From an uncultured bacterium (GTDB taxonomy: Bacteria > Cyanobacteriota > Vampirovibrionia > Gastranaerophilales > Gastranaerophilaceae), in assembly GCA_902801985.1 (NCBI GenBank), contig CADCKD010000006.1, forward strand, positions 1-64,000: a stretch of 64,000 nt of DNA, given 5' to 3'. The position numbers and the translations under genes are program-made. Below are positions 3,850 through 55,027 of the stretch, in pieces; position 1 is the first letter of the stretch; every line of letters begins with the position of its first letter. The notes under the pieces are model-generated. The model did not search any database and was not told the origin of the DNA. It saw only the letters and a program-made list of their open reading frames with translations.

Positions 3850-3900
3850 TTTACATGTCATTGCGAGGACGAAAGTCCGAAGCAATCCAGCTATTTAAGA
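3850..3900. repeat. Dispersed palindromic repeat (ATTGCGAG...GAAGCAATC family)
   Basis: CATTGCGA, then GGAC-GAAA-GTCC (a short stem with a GAAA loop), then CGAAGCAATCCAG form a nested hairpin. A related element sits at about 56368-56405 beside the tmRNA gene. It lies immediately after the truncated tRNA-like end. 3901-4009 shows nothing further that I can assign. Confidence 0.55.
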
Positions 3901-4009
3901 TTGAAAGCCATTTGTCTAAAGCAATTCCAAAACCTGTTATAAACAATCATAAATAAAATATTATTTTGTGATTTTCCTAATTAATAGGCTACTGTGGCCA
4001 ATGAGGGCT

Positions 4010-4030
4010 TTTGTAACAATAACTTAACAA
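4010..4030 (+). promoter_or_regulatory. 21-bp upstream motif shared with the gene at 56726
   Basis: TTTGTAACAATAACTTAACA plus A matches 56620-56640 at 20 of 21 positions. Both copies lie within 100 bp upstream of large surface-type or lineage-specific genes on the plus strand. The role is unknown: a regulator site or an upstream promoter element. Confidence 0.45.
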
Positions 4031-4110
4031 ACCCCAAAATGAAGGTCAATTTTAAAAATAAAAAATACTTTACCTATATATATAAATGATATATGGGGGA
4101 AATAAAGAGT

Positions 4111-6081
4111 ATGAATTATTTTGAATTTTTGGGGAACAAATATGCGTTGTCAAATGCAGTTCAGCCGAATATAAATTTGGATAATTTGCGTTTAGATGAA
4201 AATATGGATAATCCATTTAAATTGAATGGTGAATCAATATTTACTAATGCGACAAAAAAGGAATTAAAAAAATTAGACTATGAAAAATTAGTTGAAGACG
4301 AAACAAAAACAGAAGATGAAAAATCAAAAGAAAAAACAGATAAAAAAGCTGACGAAGAAAAGAAATTTTCACCATTAGAATTTATCTTAAAAGAGTTTTT
4401 ATCACTAGATAAGGTAAAAACATCCGCAGATAAAGATAGTGACGGAAAATTAACAGTTGAAGAGATAAAAGAATATGTAACTGGTTTAGCTAAAAAAGAC
4501 GGCAAATCAGATTTATCTCTGGAAGATTTCAATGCAGTAATAGAAGAATTAGAAATAAATTTAGATGAATTACTGGAAGAATTAAAACCAAAAGAAGAAG
4601 CAGAAGGGACACAAAATCAGGAAGAAACACCTGCCGCAGAAGAAACTCCTACTTCATCTTCGGTTGATGATACTCCATCCGCAAGTTCAGATAGCGGTTC
4701 ATCATATTCAGAACCGGTACAAAGCGGTTCATCTACACCTGTTGCCAGTTCATCACCTGTGGAGGATTCACCAGCATCTGCCAGAAGTTCTCATTCTTCA
4801 AGTGCAGGCGAAAGTTCTGCTCCGGAGGTAAAAACAATAGATAATATGTCTTTAGAAGAACTTCAAGCAGAAAAAACAACAAGACAAAATACACTATCTG
4901 AAAAACAAAAAGCCGTTAATGCAGTTCGCAACGGTGAAAATGCAAATGTTAAAGCTGCAAAAACAGAAGAAGCAAAAGCTAAAGAAGAATACGAAAAAGC
5001 AATCAAAGAAGATGATGCAGCCAAAAAATTTGCAAATGATATTTTGAAAAATAACGAAGCATTAGAAAAAAATAAAACAGCTTTAGATAAAAATGCCGAA
5101 AATATAACAAATAAGGAAGAAGAAATTTCTAAAGCCGAAGCATCAATTACTGAAAAAGAAAGCGAACTATCCGGTTTAGAGGCCTCTTTAAAGAGTTTAT
5201 CTTCCGCAAAAGAAGACGACGAAAACGCTAAAAAGCAAAAAGCAGATTTGACCAAGAAAATTTCAGCATTAAAAAAAGAAATAAGTAATGATAAAAAACA
5301 ATTAGAAAAATTAAAAAAAGATTTGGAATCTTTGAATAAAGAAAAAACTAAACTTGAAGAAGAAAAGAAAAAGTTGGAAGAAGAAAAAGCCAAACTTGAT
5401 GAAAAAGTAAAAGAAAATTGTTCTGAAACCACCAAAGCAAAACTGGAAGCATATAATAAAGCCAGAGAAAATGTTGAAAAAGTTAAGTCAAAAGAACTTG
5501 CAACAGCTAATAAGGAGTATAAAGAAGCTCAAGAATCTTTAAAAGAAATAAATGCAAAAATAGCTGAAGCTAAAAAGAATAAAGTAACAGATACAACAAC
5601 AGCTCCAAAAGGTTCTGTAGAGAAAATGGTTCAGATTGCAGAACAAGAATACAAAAAAGGGGTAAAAGAAACAAGCAAAAATGACAGTGTTGATATCAGA
5701 AGATATAAACACGGAGCTAAAAATACTCACGAATGGTGTGCATATTTTACATCATATTGTGCGGAACAAGCAGGTTTAACAGATAAAACATTTAAATATA
5801 CTCCATCTTCTCAAGCAATCAGAAGAGCTGCAGAAAAAGCCGGAAAATTTTCATCAAAGAATTCCAGCTACAATCCAAAACGAGGGGATGTTGCAATTTG
5901 GACAAATATAGGTGATCCAAACCACGGACATGTCGGGATTGTTGATAAAATATATAAAGATGGCTCAATAGATATAATTGAGGGAAATTCTCACAGTGCC
6001 GTATCTAAAAATCACTACGCAAGTAAAAAAATTCCCGGCAGATTTAACGGCTATATCAGAATGAATGAATGGGTTGCATAA
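4111..6081 (+). CDS. EF-hand / coiled-coil / CHAP-domain protein, probable peptidoglycan hydrolase
   Basis: Predicted 656 residues. A perfect EF-hand calcium loop lies at 107-118 (Asp107, Asp109, Asp111, Thr115, Glu118). It is followed by a Ser/Thr/Pro-rich linker (about 165-245), a long Lys/Glu-rich coiled coil (about 250-490) and a C-terminal CHAP domain with Cys543 (EWCAYF) and His607 (HGHVGIV). CHAP enzymes cut peptidoglycan amide bonds. No signal peptide is visible, so export would need a non-classical route. GGGGGA precedes this start, but 4093 is possible in frame, with TATAAA exactly 6 nt upstream as in other leaderless genes here. The calcium site suggests Ca-dependent folding or activity (inference). 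Confidence 0.85.
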   Translation: MNYFEFLGNKYALSNAVQPNINLDNLRLDENMDNPFKLNGESIFTNATKKELKKLDYEKLVEDETKTEDEKSKEKTDKKADEEKKFSPLEFILKEFLSLDKVKTSADKDSDGKLTVEEIKEYVTGLAKKDGKSDLSLEDFNAVIEELEINLDELLEELKPKEEAEGTQNQEETPAAEETPTSSSVDDTPSASSDSGSSYSEPVQSGSSTPVASSSPVEDSPASARSSHSSSAGESSAPEVKTIDNMSLEELQAEKTTRQNTLSEKQKAVNAVRNGENANVKAAKTEEAKAKEEYEKAIKEDDAAKKFANDILKNNEALEKNKTALDKNAENITNKEEEISKAEASITEKESELSGLEASLKSLSSAKEDDENAKKQKADLTKKISALKKEISNDKKQLEKLKKDLESLNKEKTKLEEEKKKLEEEKAKLDEKVKENCSETTKAKLEAYNKARENVEKVKSKELATANKEYKEAQESLKEINAKIAEAKKNKVTDTTTAPKGSVEKMVQIAEQEYKKGVKETSKNDSVDIRRYKHGAKNTHEWCAYFTSYCAEQAGLTDKTFKYTPSSQAIRRAAEKAGKFSSKNSSYNPKRGDVAIWTNIGDPNHGHVGIVDKIYKDGSIDIIEGNSHSAVSKNHYASKKIPGRFNGYIRMNEWVA

Positions 6082-6089
6082 GCTTTTTA

Positions 6090-6581
6090 TTATAGCCTAG
6101 AACTTCCATGGAATTTACTAATCTCTCTTAAGTATTGTTCCAAAGCCTTATATCCGTTATAAATTTCATTAGAAATAGTTGCATAACGGTTTGCCTCAAG
6201 GAATTTCAATTCTTTCACTCTAATCATTAAAATATTTTCAGAATCGGTTCTTAGTTGAATATCATTGCTAAGAGCCCATTTCTGTAATAGGGCAAGTTCA
6301 TTATACATTTGTTTCATTGTGGTAAATTCAAGTGTGTTAAAATCATATTTTTCAAGCAAAGATTTTTCAACATTAGTAATTCTGCTTTGGCATACTTGGA
6401 ATTTAAAAACTTTTTTTACAATTAAATAATTATCTGCAATGTTTTTATGTGATTGCGGAACAATATTTCTTGCGAGCATTGCAGCAAAAGAACGAGAGGT
6501 AAAAGAGTCGTTTTCACTGGAGAATGCACTTTTTGAAGTTAAATCAAAATCCGTTGAATTGTCAAATGTATTATCTAACAT
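6090..6581 (-). CDS. Protein of unknown function
   Basis: Predicted 163 residues, mostly helical, with a Ser/Asp/Phe-rich N-terminus (about 1-30) and no signal peptide or membrane segment. GGAGGG lies 4 nt before the start, a strong RBS. It converges with the CHAP gene with only 8 nt between stops. I do not recognise the family. Confidence 0.75.
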   Translation of the reverse strand: MLDNTFDNSTDFDLTSKSAFSSENDSFTSRSFAAMLARNIVPQSHKNIADNYLIVKKVFKFQVCQSRITNVEKSLLEKYDFNTLEFTTMKQMYNELALLQKWALSNDIQLRTDSENILMIRVKELKFLEANRYATISNEIYNGYKALEQYLREISKFHGSSRL

Positions 6582-6731
6582 TATCCCTCCGTCTTATAAC
6601 TTGATATTAGAATAATGGAAAGTTTTTGTCATGTAGTTTTGTCAATTTTTTTACATTTGTTAAAAAAGGTTTTTTTTGGTTTTTATGATACGATTAAGGG
6701 GTAGATACATTTTATACGAGGGAATTATTAA

Positions 6732-8315
6732 ATGATTGATAAATATTATTTAACAACAGCGATTGATTATGTAAATGGTGCACCACATATAGGACATGCA
6801 TACGAAAAAATATTAACAGATATTATAGCCAGACATTATTCTTTGAGAACAGAGAATTTGTTTTTCTTGACAGGAACAGATGAGCATGGTATCAAAATTC
6901 AAAAAACAGCGGCATCTCAAGGGATAACTCCAAAAGAACTATGTGATATGAATTCACAAAAATTCAAAGATGCGTGGAGTGCTTTGGATGTTAAATATAA
7001 CAGATTTATAAGAACAACGGATGCAGATCATGAAAAAATTGTTCAAAAAATCTTCCAAAAGCTTAAAGATAAAGGTGCAATTTATAAACATGAATACGAA
7101 GGCTGGTATTGTCAGGGTTGTGAATGCTTTTTAAATCCAAAAGATTTGACAGAAGACGGGCTTTGTCCTGACCACTTGAAAAAACCGGATGTTGTAAAAG
7201 AAGAAAATTATTTCTTTAAATTAACAGATTACAAAGATGCAATAATTAAACATATTAAAGAACATCCGGATTTTATAGTTCCAAGTTTCAGAGCAAACGA
7301 AGTTATAAATCAATTAGAAGATATTCAGGATATTTCTGTTTCTCGTTCAAAAGAGAATGTCGGATGGGGAATTGATATTTTGGATGATCCGGAACAATCA
7401 ATTTATGTGTGGATAGATGCATTGTCAAATTATATAACAGCTATAGGTTACGATCCGGACGGAAATTCATCAGAACAATTTAAAAAATTGTGGCCGGTTG
7501 ATGTTCATGTTATCGGAAAAGATATTTTGAAATTCCATGCAATTTATTGGCCTGCAATACTTTTGGCGTTGGATTTGCCGCTGCCGAAACATATTTTTGC
7601 CCACGGCTGGATTACTATTGATGAAACAAAAATGTCAAAATCTTTAGGCAATGTTGTTTCGCCGACATCTATTTTGGAAAACTTTGAACTAAAATATCCT
7701 GATGCGTTCAGATATTATATGGCAACATCCGCACCTTGCGGGCGTGACGGAAATTATTCCGATCAGGATTTTAAAGAAAAAGTTAATGCACATCTTGCAA
7801 ACAGTATGGGCAATTTGCTGAATAGAAGCCTTTCAATGCTCGTAAAATATTTTGACGGTGAAGTAAAAGAAGAATTTTTAACAAATCGTTCTAAAGAAGC
7901 CGAAAGTCTTTTAAAAACAGCATTAGGAACAGTTAAAATTGTAGAAAATCACTTTAATCATTTTGAAATTCAAGAAGCGGCACAAGAAATAATTTCCATT
8001 GTAGATGCTGCAAACAAATTTGTAACAGACAATGCTCCTTGGACTTTGGCAAAAGAAGAAAAAATGACTGAATGTGGTCAAGTTTTGGCAACAATTCTTG
8101 AAGTTATGTGCATAATATCTTCTTTAATTTACCCATACTGTCCAAATATTGCACAGGATATGGCAAAACAATTATCATACGATATTTCTACAAAATATGA
8201 TGATATAACGACATCTAATATTAAAGCCGGTAAATTAATCGCGAAAGAAGATATTTTCCCTGTCTTTTTGAGAGTTGATTCCGAGCTGGCCGATAAAACA
8301 AAAATTAAAGCATAA
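6732..8315 (+). CDS. metG: Methionyl-tRNA synthetase
   Basis: Predicted 527-residue class I aminoacyl-tRNA synthetase that charges tRNA-Met with methionine. The HIGH signature is PHIGH at 18-22. The KMSKS loop starts at Lys300. A zinc knuckle (CQGCECF...GLCPDH, about 125-145) lies in the connective-peptide region. A helical anticodon-binding domain follows (about 350-510). The protein ends without the C-terminal EMAP-like tRNA-binding dimerisation domain found in some bacterial MetRS, which is a normal variant. The RBS GAGGG is present. It is monocistronic as far as can be seen. Confidence 0.97.
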   Translation: MIDKYYLTTAIDYVNGAPHIGHAYEKILTDIIARHYSLRTENLFFLTGTDEHGIKIQKTAASQGITPKELCDMNSQKFKDAWSALDVKYNRFIRTTDADHEKIVQKIFQKLKDKGAIYKHEYEGWYCQGCECFLNPKDLTEDGLCPDHLKKPDVVKEENYFFKLTDYKDAIIKHIKEHPDFIVPSFRANEVINQLEDIQDISVSRSKENVGWGIDILDDPEQSIYVWIDALSNYITAIGYDPDGNSSEQFKKLWPVDVHVIGKDILKFHAIYWPAILLALDLPLPKHIFAHGWITIDETKMSKSLGNVVSPTSILENFELKYPDAFRYYMATSAPCGRDGNYSDQDFKEKVNAHLANSMGNLLNRSLSMLVKYFDGEVKEEFLTNRSKEAESLLKTALGTVKIVENHFNHFEIQEAAQEIISIVDAANKFVTDNAPWTLAKEEKMTECGQVLATILEVMCIISSLIYPYCPNIAQDMAKQLSYDISTKYDDITTSNIKAGKLIAKEDIFPVFLRVDSELADKTKIKA

Positions 8316-8332
8316 ATCATACACTTGATTTA

Positions 8333-8361
8333 TTGATATAGCTGTTCAAATACTTTATCAT
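8333..8361 (+). promoter_or_regulatory. Predicted leaderless promoter of the TonB-C protein
   Basis: TTGATA (8333-8338), 17-nt spacer, TATCAT (8356-8361), then 6 nt to ATG at 8368. No Shine-Dalgarno is present. Transcription would begin at or next to the start codon. Confidence 0.6.
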
Positions 8362-8367
8362 TTTTAT

Positions 8368-8793
8368 ATGAAAAAAGTAATAGCAGGAATTTTATTTTTA
8401 TTGTTTATGAACAGTACGAGTGCTTATGCTAAAGGATTTTTCTTTGGCAGAAAACCTAAACGTGCGCCAATTCCGGTTGTTAAGATTTATACAATTGATG
8501 ATTATATGAAGGATATGGAGCGTGAAATTAAAGCAAATTGGGCTCCTCCGCAGAATAGTTTTAAGAATAAAACAGTAGTAAATTTCCAAATACTTCGTGA
8601 CGGAACAATTAAAAATCCGCTCATATCCGAAACATCAGGGGACAAAGAATTTGACAGGGCTGCAATGCTTGCGCTCGCGAATACGAACAAAGTTACTCCA
8701 CCGCCAAGAAATCTTGTAGGTGATAGTATGGATATTTATTTCACATTTGAAAGATTTTCATATCTTGTTCATAAAGACAGATATGACAGATAA
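8368..8793 (+). CDS. Secreted protein with TonB/TolA-type C-terminal domain
   Basis: Predicted 141 residues. A signal peptide (about 1-21, ending STSAYAKG) is followed by a domain resembling the TonB C-terminus (about 48-135: MEREIKANWAPPQ, VNFQILRDGTIKNPLI, EFDRAAMLAL). There is no membrane anchor beyond the signal and no proline-rich spanning region, so it is not a classical TonB energy transducer. A paralogue at 50702 shares the KANW.PP core and organisation. Such stand-alone domains probably bind periplasmic or envelope partners (inference). It abuts the convergent hinT gene. Confidence 0.85.
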   Translation: MKKVIAGILFLLFMNSTSAYAKGFFFGRKPKRAPIPVVKIYTIDDYMKDMEREIKANWAPPQNSFKNKTVVNFQILRDGTIKNPLISETSGDKEFDRAAMLALANTNKVTPPPRNLVGDSMDIYFTFERFSYLVHKDRYDR

Positions 8794-9108
8794 TTATTTT
8801 TTACCCAAAACATGAATATGAAGGTGAAAAACTTCCTGCCCTGCTTCTTTACCGGTATTAATCTGTGTTCTGTATGATTTTAAGCCGATTTTTTTAGTAA
8901 CATCTTTCACTGTTTGCAAAAGTTCTGCCATAAGCTCTTTATCTTCAAGTTCATTAAGCGACGGCACATGCTTTTTGGGACATACAAGCATATGTATAGG
9001 AGCTTTTGGGTTTATATCATTAAATACAACTGTGTTTTCTGTTTCGTATACAAATTCTGTATTAAAATCACCGTTTATGATTTTGCAAAAAATACATTCT
9101 TCACTCAT
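8794..9108 (-). CDS. hinT: HIT-family purine nucleoside phosphoramidase (HinT type)
   Basis: Predicted 104 residues, the usual size of bacterial HinT. The N-terminal CIFCKIINGD and the C-terminal histidine triad HLHIHVLG are intact, so hydrolysis of nucleotide phosphoramidates or acyl-AMP is expected. It lies 9 nt downstream of the helicase-nuclease gene on the same strand and is probably cotranscribed. Its stop touches that of the convergent TonB-C gene. Confidence 0.95.
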   Translation of the reverse strand: MSEECIFCKIINGDFNTEFVYETENTVVFNDINPKAPIHMLVCPKKHVPSLNELEDKELMAELLQTVKDVTKKIGLKSYRTQINTGKEAGQEVFHLHIHVLGKK

Positions 9109-9117
9109 AATTTACTC

Positions 9118-12100
9118 CTATATATCAACTGCCAATACTCTGTCAAGGCAGGCCTTTGCAGAATATTGCCATTCACGATATGTTATACGTTTAACTTTTA
9201 GCCCGCAACGCTCAAGTATAGATTGCTTTTTCATATTAGAAATATTAGAACGTTTGTTATCTTCAACACCGTCAATTTCAATTACAAAGGAATCATCTAC
9301 CAGTAAATCTGCGCTCAAACCTGCAATATCTGCACCCGCAACAACTCTGTGGTCAAGTTTGCGAATTTCGTCTGCTACTTCTTTTTCAAATTTATTTTTA
9401 TAAATATTTGCATCAATTTCATCATTTGCCAAAGCACGTTTGCGCTCAACATATTCTTTCATATATGAAACATAATTTCTGAAAGAACCATCCGGCATGG
9501 TTTCCAAGTCATGTGATACAAAGTTTATGCATTTATTTTTAGCACGTGTAATTGCAACGTTGAAAAGATTTGGTTTCTGTAAGAATGTAATACTTTGCGG
9601 GAATGAATTATTTGCAAAACCCCACGAAATAAGCATAATATCTCTTTCATCTCCTTGGAACGTATGTGCTGTACCAATTTCTATTTGGTGTTTTTTAATC
9701 ATGTAATCTGAAAGAACTCTCGGAACAGATATTTTTAACTGCTCAACCTGTGCTCTGAACGGTGAAATTATACCGATAGTTGTTGGGTTTTCAGGGTTTT
9801 TACGTTCGTCTTCAATAATAATTTCATGCAATACTTTAACAAGCTCTTCAACTTCCGGAAGGTTTCTTGTTGCATCAGAATCAACTTTTCCGTCCGCAAC
9901 TTTTACCATTTCAAGTGCAACATAATCAGAAGGTTCTTTTCTCATAACTCTTATTCTGTCTGAATAAAATTCGTGATTAGAAAAATTGATTATAGCAGGC
10001 AAACTTCTAAAATGTTCATCAAGCATAACAGAATTCATTGAGTAATAATCTGCCAAATCAAACATAGAGTTTGTTCTAAATCTCCACATCAATTGGTATT
10101 TGTCAGGAATTCCGTACTGGCTCAAGAATGATTGTTCTTTTGCCTTTTCAAGGAATGACAAGTGTGGCAATTGTTTGTCATCACCGACTATAACAGATTT
10201 TTTGGCTCTGTACATAATAGGGAAACAACTTGCAATATCGCATTGAGAGGCTTCATCAATTATTGCAACATCAAACATTCCCGGTTTTAGCGGTAATGAG
10301 TCTGAAACTGCATATGTTGTAACGCACCAGCATGGAAATGCTTCTAAAAGTGGTTTAAAATCTTCTTCTTCCAGTATTTTTGATTGAAGTTTCTTACGGC
10401 GTTCAACTAACGACATCGCATGAACTTTTATTCTGCGTTTTTTCTTATCATCACGCAAAAGAGCTTTTAATGCTTCTCTACGTGTGCTTTTTAAAATATT
10501 TATAGCTAAAGTTTTTTGTTTTTTCTTTAATTGTCTGATTTGTTCATTCATAACATGCAAATTGCCTGTTTTTTGAATGTCAGCTTCAATTTTTCGGAGT
10601 TTCCATTTTTCTGTAACATAATCAAGCTCGACTTTTAGCCTGTCAAGACTTTCGGAATCAACAGAAAAATCTTTCAAATTAAGAATTTTTTTAAGGCTTC
10701 TTAAGCTCGACATATTGGCCAAAGATGCGAAAAATCCGGCCTTTTCCATATTATCTGTTAAGTTTTTTATAATATTATTGACGCTATCGATTTCTGCCTT
10801 TTTCAATGAGCGTTTGATATATTGCATTTCTCCGACTGTCAAAGAATGCTCTTTTATCTCTTTACTCAAATCATGCCATGCTTTTTCGAGTTTAATTATG
10901 TGCTCGCATTTGCTTTCAGTTTCTCTTAAGATATCAAGATGTTGTTTCATATCTTTAACATCTGAGAAAATATAATCTTCAACATCATCATCTAGGTCTG
11001 CTTTACCGGAAATCAAGTCTTGCAATTGAAGACTCAATTGTTTTTGATAATTGGCTCTGCCGGCTCTCAGTGCTAAGTATGGAGCTCCAAGATCATTCAA
11101 TCTCTCTGCCACAACATCCACCGCCTTATCCATACGAGATGCTACAAGAACAGTTTTTCCGTTAGCAATCAAGTGTGCAACAAGGTTTACGATTGTTTGA
11201 GATTTACCTGTCCCCGGAGGGCCCTGAACTGCAATGAATTTGTTATTTTCAATATTTTTGATAACTTTTTCCTGAGAATCACTTAAAGATAGTGGTGTAA
11301 CAGGATAAAACGGTTCATCATCAGATTTGTTTGAATTTTTTTCAACAGCCTGATTAAACTCATCGTTGATTACGCTCAAAGTGGTTTCTCTATATACTCC
11401 GGAAGGTTTTTCGGCAATTTGTAAAAGTTCATGCAGAACACCTGCAGTAACCGCAGGACGTTTTGTCAAAATAATTGCGCTCTGATACGTTACGCAAAGT
11501 TTTTTCAAATCTCCTTCATAGCGTTGCTTTTGCTGTTGAATATCATCCTCTATAATTTCATCTAAATTTTCGCCAGTAATTTGTACATCTGACAAATCAA
11601 CCTGAGGAGTTTCGTCTCTTGTAACGTTGTCTTCATCCGCATCTTCAGAATCATCCATAGAAATTTCAACATCCGGAATTAAAGATTTCAAAGTAGTTAA
11701 AAATACATCCATTTTTTCTTTTGTGATAGGTAAATCCGGAACAACATCCAAAATCCCTTCCAAAAATGAATCTACTTCATCATCGTCATCGCTTTTTTTC
11801 ATCAAAGAAGCCAATGCTCCGGTATTTAATGATAAAATATCTTCTTGTCTTATACAATTTATATTTACACCGTTTCGCTCAAGTTTACACGGTACATACA
11901 AAAGCGGTGTTAAAAACTCATTACGGCGTTTAGATTTGCCGTTTCTGCCGACTAAGAACATATAGCCGTAAATCAAATATTTGTCACGAGTATTGTTTTC
12001 ACTCTGAATCATAAGTTCGGTCAAATTTGCATTAGAACCGTCAAGTTTTAAATACTCTAAGCCTTCTGTCAGCAGAGTTTCTTTTTCCTTTAAGAAAATC

Positions 12101-51236: not shown

Positions 51237-52430
51237 ATGCCGAAAGCCGCAAGACAGTACGATTATAGCGGTTCATATACATCTTACTCCGGAACTTTGT
51301 ATCCGCAAAATAATGTTGCAAATTTTCAAGGTTATTACAATTCTGTTCATAGTGTGCCTAATCAAACAAAAAAAATACGCAAACCTCGCAAACAAAAATC
51401 TTTAATTCACTATTTAATTTCTTGCAGTGCTATATTATTTATGCTGTTTTGCGTGATGCCGTACGGATTTAATCATATTACTAAAGCAATTTTTGTTCCT
51501 ATTCCGTATAAAAATATTCAAACAGATTTGTATGATGTGGCATTTCCTACTGCAAATTATATTTCTAATGCTTGGTTTATGGGGCATAGATCTTTTAGGT
51601 ATGCAGCCGGTGAAAAACGTGCACAGATGGAAATGCTTAAAGAAAATGTTAATATGCCTGTTTTGAAAACTGAACTTGAAAATTTAGCTACTCAATATCC
51701 TACAATTGATCCTGCAGTTTATGTTTTTGATTACGAAACTCAAAATTATGTTGATATTAATGCGTCTGAGGTTTTCCCGACAGCAAGTATAATCAAAATA
51801 CCTGTATTGATCGATTTATTCAAGTCTATTGAGGCAGGTCAGATTTCATTAGATGATAAAATACCTTTGACGGAGTATTTTAGAACAGAAGGCTCAGGTG
51901 ATTTGCAATTTATGGCTGAAAATTCTTTGTGGGATGTTGATAATCTTGCAAGGATAATGATTACTAATTCTGATAATTCGGCAACGAATATGTTGATGGC
52001 AAAAATCGGCTCTATGACTGATGTCAACCAAGCTATACGTAGTTGGGGACTTAGTAATACTGAAGTTAACGCTTGGCTTCCTGATTTGAGCGGTAACAAT
52101 CATAGTACTGCCCGAGATTTAGCTACAATGCTTTATAACATTGATACTAATGATAAGTTTTTAACCGAGCAATCAAGAATAAAAATGATGAATTATATGG
52201 GACATGTGCACAACGACAGGTTAATTCAAGCAGGGTTGGGCGAAGGTTCTATATTTTTGCATAAAACAGGGGATATAGGTACTATGCTCGGGGATGCAGG
52301 TATTGTAGTCGCTCCTAACGGGAAAAAATATATTGTGGTAATACTTGCAAAACGTCCTCATAATTCTATTGCAGGCAAAGATTTTATAGTTCATGCATCT
52401 GAAATTATTTACAACTATATGGTGAAATAA
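51237..52430 (+). CDS. Membrane-anchored serine beta-lactamase/transpeptidase-fold protein
   Basis: Predicted 397 residues. A cytoplasmic Tyr-rich N-terminus (1-55) is followed by one membrane segment (about 60-80: YLISCSAILFMLFCVMPYG). The extracytoplasmic domain has Ser184-Ile-Ile-Lys187 (SxxK), Ser245-Asp-Asn (SDN) and Lys343-Thr-Gly (KTG), the three hallmarks of class A beta-lactamases and related DD-peptidases. The position of the class A Glu166 reads LPDLSGNN and no Glu is clear there, so deacylation and true beta-lactamase activity are doubtful. The RBS AGGAGGG is strong but 11 nt from ATG. It overlaps ldpA by 1 nt. Confidence 0.88.
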   Translation: MPKAARQYDYSGSYTSYSGTLYPQNNVANFQGYYNSVHSVPNQTKKIRKPRKQKSLIHYLISCSAILFMLFCVMPYGFNHITKAIFVPIPYKNIQTDLYDVAFPTANYISNAWFMGHRSFRYAAGEKRAQMEMLKENVNMPVLKTELENLATQYPTIDPAVYVFDYETQNYVDINASEVFPTASIIKIPVLIDLFKSIEAGQISLDDKIPLTEYFRTEGSGDLQFMAENSLWDVDNLARIMITNSDNSATNMLMAKIGSMTDVNQAIRSWGLSNTEVNAWLPDLSGNNHSTARDLATMLYNIDTNDKFLTEQSRIKMMNYMGHVHNDRLIQAGLGEGSIFLHKTGDIGTMLGDAGIVVAPNGKKYIVVILAKRPHNSIAGKDFIVHASEIIYNYMVK

Positions 52431-53371
52431 TGCTTAAAGACTTACTGGAAGCAAAAAAATGTTTTAAACTCGTTTGTGGCGCAGGGAATGAAGATGTAGA
52501 AGAAGTTAAACGTCTTGTATATGTTTATGCTCTTGGGGGGTGTAAGTTTTTTGATTTGTCGGCTAATGAGGAAATTGTTTCAGCTGCATTAGAAAGTTTG
52601 CACCTTGCAAGGGTTGAGGATGCATATATTAGTGTTAGTGTAGGCATAAAAGGAGATCCGCATTCAAATAAAGCAGTGATTGATTATACCAAATGTATAA
52701 ATTGCGGTTCTTGTGAAGCTGTATGTCAACAAGGTGCAATACAATATGCTAAAGTTAAGAAAAACAGATGTATAGGTTGTGCAAGGTGTTGGAAAGTTTG
52801 TCCAAGGTCTGCGATATCTTATGTTTCAGAGGAGAAAAAACTTGATGAGGTCTTACCTGCCATAATTGAAAAAGGTGTTGATTGTATTGAGTTTCATGTT
52901 GACGGCAAAGATGAAAATGAAATTTTTTCTAAATGGCATTATATAAATGACAATTATAACGGGCTTTTGAGTATATGTATTTCCCGCGGCAAGATGGGAG
53001 ATGAAGAACTCGTGAATCGTATTCAAAAAATGATAAACGGTAAGGATGATTATTCTGTAATAATTCAAGCTGACGGCTTTCCTATGAGCGGAGGGGATGA
53101 TACTTATAAATCAACGCTTCAGGCTGTTGCGACAGCTGAGATTGTTCAGAATGCGAAACTTCCTGTTTATCTAATGCTTTCCGGTGGTACAAATTCAAAA
53201 ACTTGCGAGCTTGCTAAAATGTGCGGAATAGATTATCACGCAGTTGCGGTTGGTTCTTATGCCAGAAAAATTGTCAAAAAATATATTGATCGTGATGATT
53301 TTTGGACTAATCATCTTGAACTTGAAGATGCAGTGAACGCGGCGAAATCTCTTGTTGCAACTATTGGATAA
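52430..53371 (+). CDS. ldpA: LdpA-like iron-sulphur protein
   Basis: Predicted 313 residues. The N-terminus (FKLVCGAGNEDVEEVKRLVY) and C-terminus (ADGFPMSGGDDTYKST, LPVYLMLSGGTNSKT, AVGSYARKIVKKY) match the cyanobacterial LdpA family as I know it. Two 4Fe-4S ferredoxin motifs lie between: Cys89/92/95/99 and Cys114/117/120/124. In Synechococcus, LdpA is a redox-active protein that feeds light/metabolic state to the Kai clock. No kai genes are in the window, so here it more likely senses or transfers redox electrons (inference). It follows the beta-lactamase-fold gene with a 1-nt overlap. Confidence 0.85.
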   Translation: MLKDLLEAKKCFKLVCGAGNEDVEEVKRLVYVYALGGCKFFDLSANEEIVSAALESLHLARVEDAYISVSVGIKGDPHSNKAVIDYTKCINCGSCEAVCQQGAIQYAKVKKNRCIGCARCWKVCPRSAISYVSEEKKLDEVLPAIIEKGVDCIEFHVDGKDENEIFSKWHYINDNYNGLLSICISRGKMGDEELVNRIQKMINGKDDYSVIIQADGFPMSGGDDTYKSTLQAVATAEIVQNAKLPVYLMLSGGTNSKTCELAKMCGIDYHAVAVGSYARKIVKKYIDRDDFWTNHLELEDAVNAAKSLVATIG

Positions 53372-53384
53372 TACATTTAATCAC

Positions 53385-53555
53385 TAACACGCAAAATCTG
53401 TGTTTTTTGTGCAACCATTAGATAGTACATTTACCCCAAACACGCAAAATCTGTGTTTTTTGTGTAACCATTGGTAGTAACATTTACCCCCAAATACGCA
53501 AAATCTGAGTTTTTTGCGCAATCATTGGTAGCAATATTTACCCCCCCCCTGCTTT
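53385..53555. repeat. Three tandem hairpin repeats of 53-55 bp between ldpA and hydG
   Basis: GCAAAATCTG recurs at 53391, 53444 and 53499. Each unit has CGCAAAATCTG(T/A)GTTTTTTG (a stem plus T-run, terminator-like), then CCATT and ACATTTACCCC. The third hairpin is the most complete (CGCAAAA / TTTTGCG). They follow the ldpA stop and precede the hydG RBS. The last unit ends in a run of nine C. It could act as a series of terminators. Confidence 0.75.
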
Positions 53556-53602: not shown

Positions 53603-55027
53603 ATGTATGATGTAAATTCCACTTGTGCCGATGATTTTATAAATAACGAAGAAGTTTTGGCTACATTAGATTATGCGGATGCCAATAAAAATAATGTTGA
53701 ACTTATAGATAAAATATTAGAAAAAGCTAAATTGGGTAACGGTTTGACCCATAGAGAGGCATCTGTTTTATTAGCTTGTGATATACCTGAAAAAAATGAA
53801 GAAATATATTCTTTAGCAAAAAAAATTAAACAAGAATACTACGGGAACAGAATTGTTTTGTTTGCGCCGTTGTATTTATCAAATTATTGTGTAAACGGTT
53901 GTGTATACTGTCCGTATCACGCAAAAAATACTCATATTCCTCGTAAAAAGATGACTCAAGAAGAGATAAAAGAAGAAGTTATTGCGCTTCAAGATATGGG
54001 TCATAAGCGTTTAGCGCTAGAAACCGGGGAAGATCCTGTTAATAATCCTATTGAGTATGTTTTAGAATCAATTAAAACGATTTATTCAATTAACCATAAA
54101 AATGGTGCTATACGTAGAGTAAATGTAAATATTGCGGCAACAACCGTTGAAAATTACCGCAAATTAAAAGAAGCAGGTATTGGTACATATATTTTGTTCC
54201 AAGAAACTTATGACAAAAAACGTTATGAAAGACTTCACCCGACAGGGCCAAAACACAATTACAACTACCATACAGAGGCAATGGACAGAGCTATGGAAGG
54301 CGGCATAGATGATGTTGGTATGGGAGTTTTATTTGGTCTTTCGACATATAAATATGAATTTGCAGCACTTTTAATGCATGCGCAGCATTTGGAAGCAAGA
54401 TTTGGTGTAGGGCCTCATACTATTTCTGTTCCAAGAATAAGAAAAGCTGATGATATTGATCCTAGTGCTTTTGAAAACGGAATAGATGATGATACTTTTG
54501 CTAAAATTGTTGCTTGTATAAGAATTTCCGTACCATATACCGGCATGATAATTTCAACCAGAGAATCCAAAAAATGCAGAGAAAGAGTTTTGGATTTGGG
54601 TATTTCTCAAATTTCGGGAGGTTCTAAGACAAGTGTTGGCGGATATGCGCATCCTGAAAACGAATCTGAAGAAGAAACTGCACAATTTGATGTAGAAGAC
54701 AGACGTACTCTTGATGAAGTAATAAAATGGTTAATGGAGCTTGGGTATGTACCTAGTTTTTGTACAGCATGCTATCGTGCAGGCAGAGTAGGGGACAAAT
54801 TTATGGAAATCTGTAAGGACAAGCAAATTCATAACTTCTGTCATCCGAATGCCTTGATTACGTTGAAAGAATTTTTAGAAGATTATGCATCAGAAGAAAC
54901 CAAAAAAGTCGGAGAAGCATTAATCGCGAAAGAACTTCCTCAACTTGAAAGCTCTGATATTGTTAAAGTGAAAACGGCTGAATATTTGAAGAAAATTGAA
55001 CAGGGCGAACGAGATTTTCGCTTTTAA
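53603..55027 (+). CDS. hydG: [FeFe]-hydrogenase maturase HydG
   Basis: Predicted 474 residues, normal for HydG. This radical-SAM tyrosine lyase makes CO and cyanide ligands for the hydrogenase H-cluster. The CX3CX2C motif is Cys96/Cys100/Cys103 (CVNGCVYC). The HydG-specific C-terminal auxiliary cluster CX2CX22C is present (CTACYRAGRVG... to HNFCHPNA). The ATG at 53603 follows GGGAGAAG; the longer frame from 53471 reads through the repeats and is rejected. No hydE, hydF or hydrogenase gene is nearby. It is followed by a convergent membrane-protein gene 4 nt after the stop. Confidence 0.95.
   Translation: MYDVNSTCADDFINNEEVLATLDYADANKNNVELIDKILEKAKLGNGLTHREASVLLACDIPEKNEEIYSLAKKIKQEYYGNRIVLFAPLYLSNYCVNGCVYCPYHAKNTHIPRKKMTQEEIKEEVIALQDMGHKRLALETGEDPVNNPIEYVLESIKTIYSINHKNGAIRRVNVNIAATTVENYRKLKEAGIGTYILFQETYDKKRYERLHPTGPKHNYNYHTEAMDRAMEGGIDDVGMGVLFGLSTYKYEFAALLMHAQHLEARFGVGPHTISVPRIRKADDIDPSAFENGIDDDTFAKIVACIRISVPYTGMIISTRESKKCRERVLDLGISQISGGSKTSVGGYAHPENESEEETAQFDVEDRRTLDEVIKWLMELGYVPSFCTACYRAGRVGDKFMEICKDKQIHNFCHPNALITLKEFLEDYASEETKKVGEALIAKELPQLESSDIVKVKTAEYLKKIEQGERDFRF

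Follow-up and report, generated by a model that had tools for sequence, protein, structure and literature searches.

An LdpA-family iron-sulfur protein of Gastranaerophilales groups with sugar-operon proteins from outside the Cyanobacteriota and suggests an enzymatic origin for LdpA

The window studied here (the whole stretch of DNA that was analysed, 64,000 nucleotides of an uncultured Gastranaerophilales bacterium) encodes a member of the LdpA superfamily. LdpA occurs in nearly the whole phylum regardless of clock genes and, elsewhere, in a biosynthetic operon, and this makes a chemical role for the protein now testable. These findings suggest that the origin of LdpA lies in an iron-sulfur enzyme and not in a clock component. 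We consider it rather probable that the window protein, as a member of this superfamily, is an enzyme with an Fe-S TIM barrel, and that the clock role in Synechococcus came later, when an enzyme that already existed was put to a new use. This reading was reached because the predicted fold, the invariant residues and the operon context all point that way.

LdpA of Synechococcus has been described as a clock factor that responds to redox state (Ivleva et al. 2005, as summarized in PMC5520375 and PMC13421787). The same two papers treat it as a clock input of unknown mechanism that is exclusive to cyanobacteria; the former of them, from 2017, surveyed 11,264 genomes. Our literature search for LdpA together with Melainabacteria found no paper.

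Family membership and domain structure

The first-pass annotation had assigned the window gene to the LdpA family, and the profile searches agree. The LdpA C-terminal model that it had named for this purpose (LdpA_C, PF12617) matched residues 145-309 of the 313-residue protein at 73.1 bits (cut-off 22.2), the LdpA Fe-S domain (PF25160) matched at 28.6 bits (cut-off 27.6), and several 4Fe-4S models, including Fer4 and Fer4_21, matched as well. All eight cysteines of the two motifs are in place (C89/C92/C95/C99 and C114/C117/C120/C124). An LdpA_C match above the curated cut-off, together with an Fe-S domain that holds two 4Fe-4S motifs, places the protein in the superfamily. The best NCBIfam model was 'circadian clock protein LdpA' (NF045992) at 146.5 bits, far under its equivalog cut-off of 450, a value that is also slightly missed by a deep-branching cyanobacterial member (420).

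The window protein shares with LdpA of Synechococcus elongatus the domain order (barrel half, two 4Fe-4S motifs, LdpA_C) and the invariant residues. However, it is only 32% identical to the cyanobacterial members and scores below the NF045992 cut-off, and its gene has no ycf45 neighbour and lies in a genome where KaiB, SasA and KaiC were not detected. A further likeness, to Ycf23/DUF561 (PF04481), was N-terminal and sub-threshold in the window protein (19.0 against a cut-off of 21.6) and above the cut-off in a member from a sugar operon (L073, 26.8). This is consistent with a related barrel, although the PF04481 match spans parts of the barrel and not the Fe-S domain.

Table 1. Features of the ldpA region, in positions of the window
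Feature	Position	Strand	Basis
Beta-lactamase2-fold protein	51237..52430	+	PF13354 191.8 bits; 1-base overlap with the ldpA start
LdpA-family iron-sulfur TIM-barrel protein, subfamily B, 313 aa	52430..53371	+	PF12617, PF25160, NF045992, AlphaFold, trees
Predicted barrel strands 1-3, with invariant K13, D42, S70, H78	52466..52663	+	145 homologues; predicted strand positions
Two-cluster ferredoxin-type domain, residues about 83-133, inserted between predicted barrel strands 3 and 4	52676..52828	+	Fer4, Fer4_21; predicted strand positions
Predicted barrel strands 4-8, with invariant E154, H156, Q213, D215, G216, G252, G253, G275, R279	52883..53266	+	145 homologues; predicted strand positions
Tandem repeat, 3.5 copies of a 54-bp unit, between ldpA and hydG	53356..53545	+	
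hydG, H-cluster maturase; judged to lie outside any conserved unit with ldpA	53603..55027	+	TIGR03955 894.6 bits (cut-off 312)

Predicted fold and invariant residues

An AlphaFold2 model of the window protein (mean pLDDT 94.8) has its strands and helices in TIM-barrel order. The residues listed as invariant in Table 1 never varied over 145 distinct sequences, D76 varied in 2 of the 145, and the eight cluster cysteines are kept in 143-145 of them. According to the model, the polar residues among those that are invariant are found at or just after the strand ends.

The nearest solved folds were KDPG aldolase, 3-hexulose-6-phosphate synthase, TrpA and ribulose-phosphate epimerase, with Z values of 16-18 over about 195-225 residues. 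These ribulose-phosphate-binding barrels have the fold in common with the predicted structure, but they are only about 10-17% identical to the window protein and the matched chains consist of the barrel alone, without the ferredoxin-type insert; the likeness of the modelled fold to theirs is not a sign of shared function. No Fe-S-bearing barrel of the LdpA kind was found among the best matches listed in the fold search. A PDB sequence search matched only the ferredoxin part, with no full-length relative among the matches listed.

LdpA outside the phylum and its operon

Scanning named genomes revealed full-length relatives outside the phylum in Methanoregula, a Methanocorpusculaceae archaeon, Syntrophorhabdus and other Desulfobacterota, and Omnitrophota, and further ones in an Elusimicrobiales genome, Aquicultor, Saganbacteria, one genome labelled Parcubacteria and one Clostridia genome. 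These relatives scored above the Pfam cut-off wherever tested. LdpA is not confined to cyanobacteria; its presence in methanogens, Desulfobacterota, Omnitrophota, Elusimicrobiota, Margulisbacteria and one Clostridia genome contradicts the 2017 survey (PMC5520375). The occurrence is sporadic, with 4 of 297 genomes in a sample centred on Desulfobacterota, 1 of 398 in one centred on Clostridia and 4 of 74 in one centred on Saganbacteria; the class-level search around the Clostridia genome took in one genome. Many of these loci are metagenome bins, and contamination is unlikely as a general explanation because the operon is conserved across unrelated bins.

In 11 of the 12 non-cyanobacterial loci of the scan, a HAD phosphatase gene lies beside or near ldpA together with at least two other partners. 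These partners are an HMGL-like (DRE-TIM) aldolase (90 bits), an HpcH/HpaI aldolase (HpcH_HpaI, 110 bits), a KdsB-like cytidylyltransferase (CTP_transf_3, 139 bits; TIGR00466, 168.5 bits over a cut-off of 155.2), a surface-carbohydrate protein related to TIGR04326 (76 bits, under the cut-off of 250) and a thiamine-pyrophosphate enzyme. Going by the annotation of these genes, the product of the operon would be a CMP-activated acidic sugar. Literature searches found no paper on TIGR04326 and nothing relevant on polysaccharide clusters of the HpcH/KdsB type. The twelfth locus, from Clostridia (L069), differs and has an Orn/Lys/Arg decarboxylase gene, ldpA and tmk. At positions 3853-9124 of this locus (Clostridia bacterium CSMAG_113) the gene order is in part that of non-photosynthetic Cyanobacteriota, and the two ORFs that come next look, on reading, like holB and ricT.

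The LdpA-like proteins of the sugar operons (Desulfobacterota, methanogens, Omnitrophota, Elusimicrobiota, Aquicultor and Margulisbacteria) belong by tree to the same subfamily as the window protein, are 42-50% identical to it, and nearly all have in common with it a signature of the CGAGNED and D(L/V/I)SA type. The window gene, however, lies outside such an operon. No HAD, HpcH or KdsB-like neighbour was found beside it, no sugar gene adjoins it, and the related DRE-TIM aldolase gene is present elsewhere in the genome as a standalone copy. Among Gastranaerophilales loci the DRE-TIM aldolase gene lies at most 1 kb from ldpA in 11 of 63; it is on the opposite side of ldpA in family f3 and is missing from some relatives (G075, G092). 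The association of the two genes is recurrent but not obligatory.

Two subfamilies and the gene order around ldpA

The trees, which are unrooted, separated two subfamilies by a branch with a support of 100/99 (64-row tree) or 100/95 (65-row tree). One side of the split holds the window protein, the Gastranaerophilales, the operon proteins and two f20 genomes; the cyanobacteria, the Sericytochromatia-type rows and families f4 and f6 of the window's class are on the other. Within its own side, the window protein clusters with sugar-operon members (branch 100/98), the Clostridia protein is at the base of the group (100/99 branch), and the proteins from Elusimicrobiota, Omnitrophota and Aquicultor are nested in the Gastranaerophilales part. 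The window protein has a mean identity of 50% to these last three and of 42% to the remaining non-cyanobacterial members; f4 follows with 33%, cyanobacteria with 32% and the Sericytochromatia-type rows with 29%. Some Gastranaerophilales proteins (L055, L057, L059, L060) are divergent and have long branches, with the second cysteine motif altered in several.

The canonical ldpA is followed by ycf45 on the same strand in 30 of 30 photosynthetic genomes sampled, these loci being the best scoring for LdpA_C and not a random draw, and also in G002 and G374, which were read in longer stretches. The same succession is found in 9 of 10 Sericytochromatia-type rows, in 7 of 7 f4 rows and in f6, with ycf45 one gene further on in f5; one deep cyanobacterial row (L134) has no ycf45 after ldpA. 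The Orn/Lys/Arg decarboxylase gene is located 5' of ldpA in f4, f6, four Sericytochromatia-type rows and the Clostridia genome. In the Gastranaerophilales, ycf45 was not found within 9 kb of ldpA at any of the 63 loci. It is present elsewhere in the Gastranaerophilales genomes tested, including that of the window, and f20 keeps an intact ycf45-tmk pair, with ldpA at another place. The simplest reading would be that operon-type ldpA has taken over from the canonical gene on two or more occasions.

The first-pass annotation had proposed a phylogeny of LdpA; the trees place the protein on a 100/99 branch with non-cyanobacterial proteins. Considering the tree, the missing ycf45 linkage and the score below the equivalog cut-off, the window protein is unlikely to be the vertically inherited equivalent of clock LdpA.

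An alternative to replacement is that the window LdpA was inherited vertically, moved away from ycf45 and diverged, and that the non-cyanobacterial members obtained the gene from Gastranaerophilales. This would agree with the nesting of the Elusimicrobiota, Omnitrophota and Aquicultor proteins and with the retention of ycf45 elsewhere in the Gastranaerophilales genomes tested. Holding the window's class together, along with three nested non-cyanobacterial rows, costs 27 log units with one data set, where vertical descent was not rejected (p-AU 0.072), and 31 log units in the second test, which speaks against it (p-AU 0.031). The latter value is not to be relied on, because the group was put to the test with a first tree already in view and the data sets of the two tests differ. 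Also difficult for vertical inheritance is that the window protein is 42% identical to archaeal and Desulfobacterota members and only 33% to f4 of its own class, that the 100/99 branch also takes in the Clostridia protein, and that f20, a deep lineage, shows this switch as well while its ycf45-tmk pair has stayed where it was. We regard this alternative as unlikely.

LdpA and the clock genes

The whole genome of the window (2.1 Mb, 99.9% complete) gave no match to the KaiB model. The KaiC family (PF06745) matched three kinds of ORF only, which by our reading of their sequences are RadA, RecA and an ATP-synthase alpha-like ORF. Besides KaiB itself, the KaiB model detects in cyanobacteria a set of longer ORFs (about 380-430 residues), presumably SasA, and because the model gave nothing in the window genome SasA would be absent too. 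The lack of kai genes claimed for the window thus extends genome-wide to KaiB, SasA and KaiC, the three clock genes covered.

To compare distributions, the lists of genomes with LdpA and with KaiB were crossed by hand for 386 genomes drawn from the phylum. LdpA_C is present in 377 and KaiB in 189; both occur in 185, LdpA alone in 192, KaiB alone in 4 and neither in 5. None of the KaiB-positive genomes comes from the window's own family. Since 192 of the 386 genomes have LdpA without KaiB, LdpA is independent of the clock. The claim of an older redox function that predates the clock role accordingly holds for its age, in view of these genomes and of the ldpA-ycf45 order common to photosynthetic and several non-photosynthetic lineages, but 'redox function' is too narrow, as fold, residues and operon point to an enzyme.

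Some individual genomes are worth recording. One genome of 2.2 Mb from a photosynthetic family (G374, locus L162, family f24) has the canonical ldpA-ycf45 and no KaiB match. KaiB is present and an LdpA match is missing, or weak in the case of G223, in genomes of photosynthetic families (G165, G223 (f32, g106), G245, G340 (f15)). KaiB-family matches were also obtained in G096 (f4, E 7e-12) and G013 (f13, E 4e-13), from lineages that are otherwise KaiB-free and apparently non-photosynthetic.

Proposed function

To our knowledge, no ligand, cofactor or activity is known for any LdpA member. We infer a catalytic role, in which the body of the protein would be a ribulose-phosphate-binding type of TIM barrel that carries the two-[4Fe-4S] domain between strands 3 and 4. 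The two clusters may bind the substrate, a small phosphorylated compound or 2-oxo acid, or supply it with electrons; this substrate might be held at the C-terminal strand ends by K13, D42, H78, E154, H156, Q213 and D215; the likely phosphate grip would be formed by G252-G253-T-N and G275-S-Y-A-R. Judged by its neighbours, subfamily B in anaerobic bacteria and methanogens would belong to an undescribed pathway to a CMP-activated acidic surface sugar, with the DRE-TIM aldolase, LdpA, the HAD phosphatase, the HpcH/HpaI aldolase and the KdsB-like cytidylyltransferase as its putative parts. In Gastranaerophilales the gene is mostly single-copy and seems to have taken the place of the canonical ldpA that is linked to ycf45.

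A more specific version can be proposed only tentatively, and we hold it to be possible but somewhat short of probable: LdpA would be the Fe-S TIM-barrel enzyme of this undescribed pathway to a CMP-activated acidic sugar, or to a shared precursor, across anaerobic bacteria and methanogens, and would have been kept in cyanobacteria as a housekeeping enzyme that later became a redox input to the clock. It counts against the enzyme reading that the clade A neighbours (ycf45, tmk and the Orn/Lys/Arg decarboxylase) give no sugar pathway. The invariant residues could also serve structure or protein binding instead.

Perhaps LdpA is everywhere a non-catalytic redox sensor or scaffold, a degenerate protein-binding barrel whose clusters report redox state to partners, kai-free ones in the non-photosynthetic lineages. 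The role in clock period and CikA level reported for Synechococcus LdpA (according to a summary in PMC13421787) would fit such a protein, as would the near-universal presence of LdpA in the phylum (377 of 386 genomes). What makes a sensor or scaffold improbable in our view is the invariance of the polar residues at the strand ends across 145 sequences whose identity falls to about 20-25%, and the location of family members in biosynthetic operons of other phyla and of archaea. For the preferred reading, that of an iron-sulfur enzyme, the operon proteins of anaerobes offer a tractable system, and the residues named above are available to mutate in Synechococcus.

Neighbouring genes in the window

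The beta-lactamase-fold gene upstream of ldpA and hydG downstream had both been named in the first reading of the sequence, and the scores in Table 1 confirm the two identities. The Beta-lactamase2-fold gene is the direct upstream neighbour of ldpA in 39 of the 63 Gastranaerophilales scan loci. By alignments, the spacing between these two genes in Gastranaerophilales loci is 3-11 bases.

As a clue to function, the neighbourhood of hydG did not hold up: of the 63 related loci, only 2 have the gene at a distance of 9 kb or less from ldpA, both from close relatives of the window, and the association was rejected. That ldpA takes part in [FeFe]-hydrogenase maturation or redox supply, as might be thought from a true HydG that starts 231 bases 3' of ldpA on the same strand and from the Fe-S clusters of both proteins, is very improbable given this unconserved linkage and the tandem-repeat spacer between the two genes. 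A terminator scan of the ldpA-hydG interval found none. The exact core of the 54-bp repeat, CACGCAAAATCTGTGTTTTTTG, was absent from shuffled sequences and occurs twice in the window.
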